Source: Curvibacter lanceolatus ATCC 14669
Lineage (GTDB): Bacteria > Pseudomonadota > Gammaproteobacteria > Burkholderiales > Burkholderiaceae_C
NCBI RefSeq assembly: GCF_000381265.1
Contig: NZ_KB906281.1
Location: 1-64,000, forward strand
Direction of reading: 5' to 3'
DNA: 64,000 nucleotides
Of this stretch, positions 55,835 to 59,234 are shown in pieces. A program made the translations under genes and the position numbers. The notes under the pieces are model-generated. The model did not search any database. It was not told the origin of the DNA and saw only the letters and a program-made list of their open reading frames with translations. Position 1 is the first letter of the stretch, and each line of letters opens with the position of its first letter.

Positions 55835-57133
55835 TTATGCTCTCGCTACAGGAACCTCCTCCCACCGGGTCGTGTACTGCGGCGTTCGCCTCTCCTGTCG
55901 CATTCCCCACGACCGGCGCGCATCATCAACACCCGAGCTGGCCATGTGCACCGTCCCCTTGCCATATCGGCCATTGAGGACGTCCAAGGCCTCCATCAAT
56001 CGGGTCCGATCGTTGTGATCGTCAATGTCCAGGTCGAGTTCCCACTGCTCACAGGTCTCATCCACCAAGTCCAACAGCATGACACCCGCTTTGATCAGCT
56101 GGTAACCAGGCTGGTAGATCTGACGTATCCCCAGTGCGGCCGCATGCACCAGATGCGCTGTGTCTGCCGTGGGGCGCCTCAGTGGCACGACGATGCTCTT
56201 TGAGAATCTCGGTCCCGGCCGAAACGGCGACGTGTGCGAGAACACAAGCAGTTCGCTTGCAAGGCTGTGCTGACGGCGAAGCTTCTCTGCGGCTCGGGTT
56301 GCGAATTCACTCACCGCTTCAATCAAGGGGGCCAAGTCGGTGATCGGCCTTCCAAATGACCTGGTGCAGGCAATTTGCTTCTTGGGTGACGGGGCGTCGT
56401 CAAGATCCACGCAGGGCATGCCCTGCAACTCCCGCACAGTGCGTTCTAGGACCACACCCCATCGGCTTCGTACTGTCGCCACATCCAAACGGACAAGGTC
56501 CAAAACGGTTGCGATCCCCTCTTCTCTGAGTTGTTTCTCGATGCGCGGCCCGACACCCCAGACTTCGCCCACTTCGGTGGCAGCCAGAACGGCATCCAAG
56601 TCACTGGCCGGCAGGCTTGCAAAGTTGCAAACCTGAGAAAGATCACTGGGGTAACTGCCGGGCTTGCGCTCGGCCATCTTGGCAACGTGGTTGGCGAGTT
56701 TCGCCAAGGTTTTGGTGTTTGCGATTCCGACGCAGCACGGAATGCCAACCCACTGATGGATTCGGGCTCGAATGGCCCGGGCACGCTTGTTCAGATCGCC
56801 ACGCACGCCATCCAAGCCAATGAAGCTCTCGTCGATGCTGTAGATCTCCTGACTGGGTCCAAGCCCTGCAGCCAGACTCATCATCCGGTCACTCATGTCT
56901 CCGTACAACGTGAAATTCGCAGACAAGCCCACCAGGCCGGCCTCGTCCTCCAGGTGCCGGACGGTAAACCAAGGCGCCCCCATGCGAATGCCCAACGCCT
57001 TGGCTTCATTGCTGCGCGCCACGGCGCAGCCATCGTTGTTGCTGAGCACGACGACGGGACGCCCGTTCAGACTTGGCCTGAACACGCGCTCGCAGGAGAC
57101 GTAAAAATTGTTCCCATCAACCAAGGCGTACAT
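55835..57133 (-). CDS. umuC: Y-family DNA polymerase V catalytic subunit UmuC
   Basis: From ATG 57133 the product has 432 residues: [20 protein letters not shown] (catalytic Asp in VDGNNFYVS), [20 protein letters not shown], and [19 protein letters not shown] (second Asp-Glu pair). The little-finger domain follows after a helix-hairpin-helix ([20 protein letters not shown]). It carries out translesion synthesis. GAGG 8 bases before ATG 57133 supports this start over ATG 57151. It lies directly after umuD and shares its SOS control. Confidence 0.94.
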
Positions 57134-57159
57134 ACCCAGAGCCTCATGCACGCCTGTGC

Positions 57160-57600
57160 TCAGGTCGGAAACCGTTTGATGCTGCTGGTCACCACGCCCC
57201 AGACCTCAACGGTTTGCCCTTCCTTGGGGGTGATCTCGGGGAAGGTGGGGTTTGCTGGTTTAAGTTTGGTCCTGCCCGCCCTCTGGTACAGGTATTTGAC
57301 GGTGAACTCCCCATCCAGCACGGCGACCACGACATGCCCATGTCGGGGTTTGATCGCCTTGTCGACCACCAGCATGTCCCCATCGAAGATGCCCGCATCG
57401 CGCATCGAATCCCCGCTTACACGCAGCAGGAAGGTCGCCTGGGGGTGCACGATCAACTCTGCGGTCAAGTCAATGCGCTTGACCGTGAAATCCTCTGCCG
57501 GCGAGGGGAATCCAGCCTGCACCGTATCCCGCGCAAGAGGCAACAGCAGGCCCGCTGGCGAAATCTGGATGGGAGCAGGGACAGCAACAATACTGGACAT
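57160..57600 (-). CDS. umuD: UmuD, SOS-cleavable subunit of DNA polymerase V
   Basis: The 146-residue product has the self-cleavage region [10 protein letters not shown] (cut expected between Ala and Gly; E. coli has Cys-Gly). The catalytic Ser is in [18 protein letters not shown] and the catalytic Lys in [11 protein letters not shown]. The N-terminal about 30 residues are poorly structured, as usual. The ATG overlaps a LexA-like box and probably lies at or next to the transcription start. It is followed by umuC. Confidence 0.94.
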
Positions 57601-57634
57601 TCATCCAGTATAAACTTTGCCCTGTTTCCTTCAA
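57590..57634 (-). promoter_or_regulatory. LexA-type SOS box and sigma-70-like promoter of umuDC
   Basis: ATACTGGA (57590-57597) and TCCAGTAT (57604-57611) form a perfect inverted repeat with the CTG-N10-CAG core of LexA boxes. On the minus strand, TTGAAG (57634-57629) and TATACT (57612-57607) fit -35 and -10 elements 16 bases apart. The box covers the -10 and the start codon at 57600-57598, so the transcript could be leaderless. This layout is read from sequence; LexA binding is inferred. Confidence 0.7.
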
Positions 57635-57659
57635 ATCTTCGACATCAACCCGGCGGCCA

Positions 57660-59234
57660 TCACGGCACTGCCGCCAGAACGCCTACGTCGCTTGCCCCCA
57701 TCGAGGTTCGCCCTTTGCCTGCACGCTTGGCGTCGTACATGGCTTCATCAGCGGTTTGCATCACATCCTCTGCGTCTTCACCCGCACCTGGGTAAATGGC
57801 GATGCCAATGCTGACGCTGATCCTCGCCTCCCCACGCTCCAAGGCATACGGTGCGGACACTGCGGCGATCAGCGTCTGGGCGCACTGATGTGCCGACTCG
57901 GAGTCCACATGCATCAGCAGCACAGCGAATTCGTCGCCCCCGAATCGGGCAACCACGTCAGACTCGCGCACACCGTGGCGCAGGCGGTCGGCCACGCTTC
58001 TCAGCAGGTCATCACCCGTGGCGTGACCCAGGCTGTCGTTGACCGCTTTAAAACCATCCAGGTCCATGAACAAGACGGCCATGGACTCGCCTTGTCGTCG
58101 GCACAAGGCCATGCCTTGCTCGACCTGATGGGTGAACAGGCTCCGATTGGCCAGGCCTGTCAGTGGGTCGTGATGCGCCGCGTATTGGCTCTTCATCATT
58201 TTCTCGCCGGCCACCACAAGAGCCCAGCGCATGTCGTTGGCCTCTTTGAAGTGAAGCGGAGGAATGGACTGCACATGACCTTGCACCAAAGCTGCAGCTG
58301 GCTCTGTCAAAGCTTGCATGGAGTCAGAAATCTTTGACGCGATCCACCAAGCCACCCATTGGCCGAGCAGAAGCGCGATCAGCCCCAACTCCAGCAACCA
58401 GATCATCTGCTGGTTGATGCTTTGCTCCAGTTCTGCCACGGGAATGCCAATGGTGATCGTCCACCCGGTGAGCTCAGACCGATGGTAGGCAGCCAACACC
58501 CGGATCCGGTCTAAGGTTTGGCTTTCGAACACCCCTTCGGCTGAGGAGCTGATCCGATCGCGCAGTTCGGGCGTGCTGAGTTGGCCCACGTACTTGTCGG
58601 CATCCACATTGCGTGCCGCAACTCGACCACTGCCCTCAATCAAGCCAACTCGCCAAGCCTCCGGGAATCGCTGCGTGGCGATGACCTCAGAAAGGATCTG
58701 AGGCGTGAGCAAAGCGTTGAGGGAATACTGAAACTGCCCCTCGGTGATCACCGGCACGGCCACGGTGAGCAGGTGACGCTTGCCATCCACGGCCATGAAC
58801 AAGCCTGACACACCGGGCACCTGGGTTTTGATCGTTCGCTCCAGCAAGGGCGGGTTCGGAAGCCGCGTGGGGGGTGTCTGCGGATCTCTCGCAGCAGACA
58901 TCACCATATCGCCCGCAGGTGTGATGACCAGAATGTCTGCCACCCCCATCTGAGTCCTCACAGTTGACGCTCGCTCGTGGAAGCGAGGCAGGTCGCCCTT
59001 TCGGAGATTGCTGGAGGTCGAGAGAACTTCAAGGCCTGTTTGGATGCTGAGGATCTTCTCGTCGACGATCCCGGAAATAGCCCGCGCACGCCCAAGCACC
59101 GACTCGGACATCTGGGCTCTGCTGTCCTGATACTGCTGTTTGAGCACCACGACACCCAGCGTCACGATCGGCAACACGCTCACCAACGGAAGTGCCAAAA
59201 GTGCATGGCGAATGCTGGGAACGAATCGAAACAT
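57660..59234 (-). CDS. Membrane-anchored diguanylate cyclase with periplasmic sensor
   Basis: The 524-residue protein has TM1 (about 10-30), a double-Cache-like periplasmic region of about 250 residues (MGVADILVITPAGDMVMSAA; LAAYHRSELTGWTITIGIPV), TM2 (about 285-305), a linker, and a GGDEF domain (HHDPLTGLANRSLFTHQVEQ; AVLFMDLDGFKAVNDSLGHA; VVARFGGDEFAVLLMHVDS). The intact GGDEF site predicts c-di-GMP synthesis. No RxxD inhibitory site was seen just before GGDEF. It lies 59 bases upstream of umuD on the same strand. Confidence 0.92.
   Translation of the reverse strand: MFRFVPSIRHALLALPLVSVLPIVTLGVVVLKQQYQDSRAQMSESVLGRARAISGIVDEKILSIQTGLEVLSTSSNLRKGDLPRFHERASTVRTQMGVADILVITPAGDMVMSAARDPQTPPTRLPNPPLLERTIKTQVPGVSGLFMAVDGKRHLLTVAVPVITEGQFQYSLNALLTPQILSEVIATQRFPEAWRVGLIEGSGRVAARNVDADKYVGQLSTPELRDRISSSAEGVFESQTLDRIRVLAAYHRSELTGWTITIGIPVAELEQSINQQMIWLLELGLIALLLGQWVAWWIASKISDSMQALTEPAAALVQGHVQSIPPLHFKEANDMRWALVVAGEKMMKSQYAAHHDPLTGLANRSLFTHQVEQGMALCRRQGESMAVLFMDLDGFKAVNDSLGHATGDDLLRSVADRLRHGVRESDVVARFGGDEFAVLLMHVDSESAHQCAQTLIAAVSAPYALERGEARISVSIGIAIYPGAGEDAEDVMQTADEAMYDAKRAGKGRTSMGASDVGVLAAVP

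Follow-up and report, generated by a model that had tools for sequence, protein, structure and literature searches.

The window analyzed here is the 64,000-nucleotide stretch at the start of contig NZ_KB906281.1 of Curvibacter lanceolatus ATCC 14669. It carries a umuD gene, a umuC-like gene in the same operon, and a compact group of putative regulatory elements at the umuD start:

55835-57151, minus strand: umuC-like gene, same operon as umuD (from the list of open reading frames and profile NF002955)
57160-57600, minus strand: umuD, 146 aa (open reading frame, profile and solved-structure matches)
57591-57610, minus strand: LexA-type (SOS) box TACTGGATGAATGTCCAGTA (motif search, shuffles, homologue comparison)
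57598-57600, minus strand: umuD ATG (box offset 10), with the predicted transcription start on its A, 57600
57607-57612, minus strand: -10 hexamer TATACT, running into the 5' edge of the LexA box
57629-57634, minus strand: -35-like hexamer TTGAAG, 4/6 matches, 16 nt before the -10

The umuD product scores 157.4 bits against the UmuD profile NF007621 (cut-off 110), also matches the solved UmuD/UmuD' structures, and has the [AC]-G cleavage site. The umuC-like gene lies directly 3' of umuD, as in a pol V operon, and begins at GTG 57151 or, more likely, at ATG 57133, which is preceded by GAGG; its protein aligns with nearly the whole NF002955 model over residues 7-437 at 413 bits, slightly under the cut-off of 431. 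On the other side, a GGDEF diguanylate cyclase gene on the minus strand (57660-59234) ends 59 nt upstream of umuD and runs in the same direction. Neighbors of umuD in the window are this cyclase and regulators, and no tRNA gene was found in the 64-kb window. Some umuD relatives are plasmid-borne.

The original prediction placed an SOS box over both the -10 and the umuD start codon, with the ATG inside the spacer, and this geometry holds: the box begins at the third base of TATACT and contains the ATG. The box is a CTG-N10-CAG palindrome at the promoter, of the E. coli/beta-gamma type. It had been called perfect, which is true of its arms, ATACTGGA and TCCAGTAT, but not of the central TGAATG, and the half-sites read CTGG/CCAG rather than CTGT/ACAG; the boxes upstream of the lexA-like gene of this genome likewise have one CTGG half. 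RNA polymerase preferentially initiates about 7 nt downstream of the -10. The A of the ATG (57600) is the seventh base past the last base of the -10 (57607), within the roughly 6-8 nt characteristic of leaderless genes, and the -35/-10 pair predicts a start at that A, as had been claimed. The pair itself, TTGAAG-16-TATACT, has 9 of 12 matches, with one such pair found where 0.2 were expected. No Shine-Dalgarno sequence precedes the ATG, also in keeping with a leaderless message. The perfect TACTG-N10-CAGTA occurs once in the 64 kb (none of 100 shuffles had one) and at four places in the whole genome (6.83 Mb), which makes the box on its own uncommon, though not unique. The fuller pattern TATACTG-N5-ATG-NN-CAG likewise occurs once in the window and in 0 of 100 shuffles, and the 22-mer of the element has a single occurrence in the genome. 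No Rfam family was matched in 57000-58000. The 5' end of the predicted umuD mRNA is unpaired in the computed fold, and a special RNA structure was rejected, the first 60 nt folding no better than shuffles (142 of 200 folded at least as well).

Homologues were drawn from named genomes (the best 80 of 133 confirmed), from the genus, and from an even sample of 399 family genomes, 91 of which had a UmuD match, with further family loci taken as stretches. We left out nine LexA-like loci below 100 bits, one locus that was the window again (L001), one with no match (L014), and 12 duplicate rows. The resulting 174 distinct homologues, which are to be counted as related sequences rather than independent ones, comprise 122 with a recognized box and 52 without. 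An in-frame start lies exactly at offset 10 in 69 of the 122 boxed homologues, hereafter fused, and the other 53 boxes are in other registers. Within the family sample, not deduplicated, the 105 loci divide into 52 at offset 10, 4 at offset 19, 28 leadered, 20 boxless and 1 unclear, and offset 10 is found at umuD in 36 of 60 genera. Across these sequences the arrangement is therefore not a one-copy quirk.

LexA boxes are AT-rich and might often contain an ATG by chance, and an ATG is indeed common at offset 6 as well (34 boxes). An incidental ATG would have a random frame, however, and only 2 of these 34 are in frame with umuD, whereas 61 of the 64 offset-10 ATGs begin an uninterrupted umuD frame (the exceptions are L115, L188 and L145, two in another frame and one with stops), which argues that the offset-10 ATG is a real start. 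Further, when TATACTGN5ATGNNCAG was searched in the 399 family genomes with the reversed motif as control, it gave 69 matches in 60 genomes, against 2 for the control. Together with the 0/100 shuffles, these counts led us to reject chance overlap, an explanation that we regard as barely credible.

Comparing umuD leaders among relatives, as the original prediction had proposed, shows register, frame, -10 and absence of a Shine-Dalgarno sequence conserved together. The TA that completes a TATACT-like -10 precedes the box in 63 of 69 fused homologues against 19 of the 53 boxes in other registers, and the hexamer at the -10 place is TATACT, TACACT or TAAACT in 63 of the 69. A looser score finds a TATACT-like -10 at this position in 22 of 49 leadered homologues as well; the hexamer by itself is therefore not diagnostic, and what distinguishes the fused class in these comparisons is where its ATG lies rather than its -10. 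A -35 with at least 4 of 6 matches at spacing 15-19 is present in 22 of 69 fused homologues, about twice the rate in shuffled upstream sequence (16%). Motifs resembling a Shine-Dalgarno sequence occur in 2 of 69 fused homologues; the figure is 9 of 36 where an ATG lies 15-45 nt past the box start, and composition would give 12%. Of the 69 fused umuD genes, 63 have AGT as their third codon and 6 have AGC. AGT makes up 6.8% of the 443 other serine codons in these genes, but because the boxes were selected for a CAG core, which already fixes AG, the fair comparison is AGT among AGT plus AGC, about 17% in the rest of the gene against 63 of 69. The operator thus determines the first residues of UmuD.

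These data also bear on whether the umuD mRNA that is translated has a leader after all, transcription starting farther upstream or reading through from the diguanylate cyclase gene, which shares the umuD strand and is separated from it by no terminator-like site that we could find in 57500-57750. Such a leader would lack a Shine-Dalgarno sequence, and no second promoter-like column is conserved upstream in the 69 fused relatives, where conservation at the other positions between -40 and -3 of the box is 0.33 bits at most. The upstream gene is moreover divergent in 26 of 69 (crude motif), so that read-through of the cyclase type is not the common rule. We consider a leadered message unlikely.

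A start codon elsewhere, a downstream one being the other outcome named at the outset as contrary to the prediction, is impossible upstream because a TGA adjoins the ATG and closes the frame; an in-frame stop just before the start is found in 14 of the 69 fused relatives, the window included. Downstream, the next start-type codons in frame are codons 20 (TTG) and 27 (GTG), and the real start could be one of these, leaving the ATG in the box unused. Start-type codons somewhere in codons 2-20 are present in 60 of 69 fused homologues (in the window only codon 20), so by itself this criterion leaves room for a later start in individual copies, and later starts have been annotated. Among seven plasmid records (at least two of which are the same as family-sample members, L366 and L371), five have an in-frame ATG at offset 10; three are annotated there and two at a later start (GTG at 40, ATG at 64). 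One of the remaining records has its ATG at box offset 38 and the other has no recognized box. The offset-10 frame is nevertheless kept in 61 of 64 boxes, close relatives are alike in the N-terminal segment, and a protein begun at codon 27 would have hardly any residues ahead of the cleavage site, all of which makes a downstream start highly improbable. Eight of the 69 fused starts are not ATG (six GTG, two TTG). The two TTG cases, L168 and L180, belong to another clade and lack TATACT, and an ATG occurs in them about 31 nt past the start of the box; for these reasons they are probably not truly fused but leadered.

In a tree of 173 UmuD cores, built from few columns and with many open forks, a clade of 108 rows (SH-aLRT 99) contains 67 of the 69 fused homologues. 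The fused label requires 20 changes on the tree, of which starred branches force at least 12, whereas shuffled labels need 54 on average; the arrangement thus appears clustered and probably old, yet gained or lost repeatedly. Near-identical UmuD proteins can differ in this respect, one being fused and the other leadered (L034 and L035; likewise L015), and the promoter upstream of umuD therefore seems to be exchangeable.

Upstream of umuD, a divergent open reading frame beginning MC.. was seen, by a crude motif, in 26 of 69 fused loci against 6 of 53 others (loci include L016-L025, L031-L035, L104, L111, L114, L123 and L126), mostly starting 23-76 nt from the box. An SOS response-associated peptidase is annotated upstream of umuD in four of the seven plasmid records. 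A single LexA box may serve both umuD and the divergent gene.

The best explanation, to which we assign a probability of roughly 0.8, is a fused SOS element, one short stretch serving as LexA operator, as start codon and as a portion of the promoter, so that derepression would yield a leaderless umuDC mRNA. The geometry, its conservation, its dependence on frame, the conserved -10, the absence of a Shine-Dalgarno sequence and the constraint on the first codons are observed at this locus and its relatives. From them we infer the 5' end of the mRNA, the binding of LexA and the leaderless translation of umuD. Bound to its box, LexA would lie over the -10, the transcription start and the DNA of the start codon all at once. 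Since the box overlaps the -10 and holds the ATG at offset 10, the -10 would fix +1 on the A of that ATG. After DNA damage and LexA cleavage, RNA polymerase would make an mRNA beginning with AUG, umuD would be translated as a leaderless message, and umuC would follow in the operon. The leaderless interpretation with which the original prediction began is, at the level of sequence, supported.

Fusion is not a rule across this genome, an idea rejected because its lexA-like gene, imuA and radical-SAM gene are leadered: the first has two boxes and a Shine-Dalgarno-like AGGAG, and the ATG follows the box start by 44 nt in imuA and by 32 nt in the PA0069-type gene. Nor is offset 10 a rule for other SOS genes, by even samples of imuA, radical-SAM and intI loci from which pattern-derived loci were excluded. 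Offset 10 was found in 0 of 28 imuA loci (2 of 30, below 90 bits, having been dropped), in 3 of 30 radical-SAM loci (TATACT accompanies it in just one), and in 3 of 30 intI loci, two of which are TTG starts without TATACT (15 of the 30 are boxless and 2 are duplicates). By these samples, the offset-10 register is common only at umuD. In the rest of the PA0069-type radical-SAM sample (L289-L318), a second register is seen, with the ATG at offset 19 and its A as the last base of the box (18 of 30 loci; the ATG is elsewhere in 8, and one is boxless). Here a -10-like hexamer lies inside the box, reading TATATA or TATAAA in 14 of 19 box instances, none of which is preceded by TA, so that the -10 and the start codon move in step.

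The same fusion does occur sporadically at intI, PA0069-type radical-SAM, imuA and error-prone dnaE genes. Judged by eye, the 69 motif matches in family genomes comprise 43 umuD (some broken or cut), 6 intI, 2 imuA, 4 radical-SAM in frame and 3 with the ATG out of frame, 3 of an unnamed family, 1 that is the second strand of a counted box, and 7 unassigned. One radical-SAM gene (L243) shares 22 identical letters with the window element. Across the class, 14 of 274 genomes contain the motif, 12 of which lie outside the family (3 matches for the control), and the matches include two error-prone DnaE genes (NF004225, 649 and 645 bits, half of the gene read) and one that we take for imuB by sequence, with a weak Y-family match. 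A protein family of 252-268 aa also has a fused start (L222, L233 and L244); the one member compared with NCBIfam and Pfam matched neither. Of 80 motif loci read in viral contigs, among the matches listed, 27 have an open reading frame of at least 60 aa from that ATG. A protein of about 96-106 aa beginning MYSIVKRLR recurs in seven viral contigs (L380, L390, L393, L394, L426, L428 and L432), starting within a LexA-type box, and 70 of its residues had no match in PHROG. Three UmuD-like open reading frames in viral contigs (L400, L446 and L450) also start inside a box, by eye. A broader reading, which we offer tentatively and think rather doubtful, is that of a recurrent SOS promoter class, centered on Burkholderiales and present also in phage contigs, with a fixed register of operator, -10 and start, which would have arisen repeatedly at genes for error-prone polymerases and recombinases and be made only as leaderless mRNAs. 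If it were true, derepression by DNA damage would be tied to a further filter, one acting at translation and governed by the state of the ribosome under stress.

If the explanation for umuD is correct, translation of a mutator operon proceeds without a ribosome-binding site in many beta-proteobacterial genera, and the operator itself is read as the first residues of the protein, M-[Y/N/S/H]-S. Such LexA targets would then be recognizable from their N-termini, start-site annotation could be corrected (as for the two fused plasmid records annotated later), and one could test directly whether the initiation of translation is a step at which SOS mutagenesis is tuned.

The comparisons that follow draw on the accessible portions of the papers cited. 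We found no report of a leaderless umuD or of a start codon inside a LexA box in mostly non-subscription literature, and the supplementary LexA-site distances of PMC3323433, which describes splB as a beta-proteobacterial SOS gene, may hold such geometry. Four further papers (PMC8876359, PMC7739468, PMC8072749 and PMC8138138) had, in the same portions, no bearing on the start codon question. Leaderless transcripts are known in Burkholderia cenocepacia (PMC4603805), of the same order as the window organism, but the accessible text names neither LexA, SOS nor umuD. The lexA gene of M. tuberculosis is a leaderless SOS gene transcribed from its own start codon (PMC2897130, PMC3062782), although it is another gene in another phylum and the passages on it do not place its SOS box over the start codon. 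The setR gene of SXT/R391 (PMC4542580) and cI/cro of phage PY54 (PMC4488713) are similarly leaderless and tied to SOS-responsive switches, with operators near the promoter, but they encode repressors under SetR/CI/Cro control and are not LexA targets. In integron integrase promoters, the LexA box lies partly over the -10 and is described as a classic operator (PMC3108266); class 1-type intI differs from umuD in having its ATG at offset 30 (L322-L324), and only some chromosomal intI genes show the fusion. In umuDC of Enterobacterales and its relatives (Pantoea, Erwinia, Enterobacter, Silvania), UmuD is likewise under a LexA box that overlaps the promoter region, but there the box, where found, lies 34-43 nt before the start, often with a Shine-Dalgarno-like motif.
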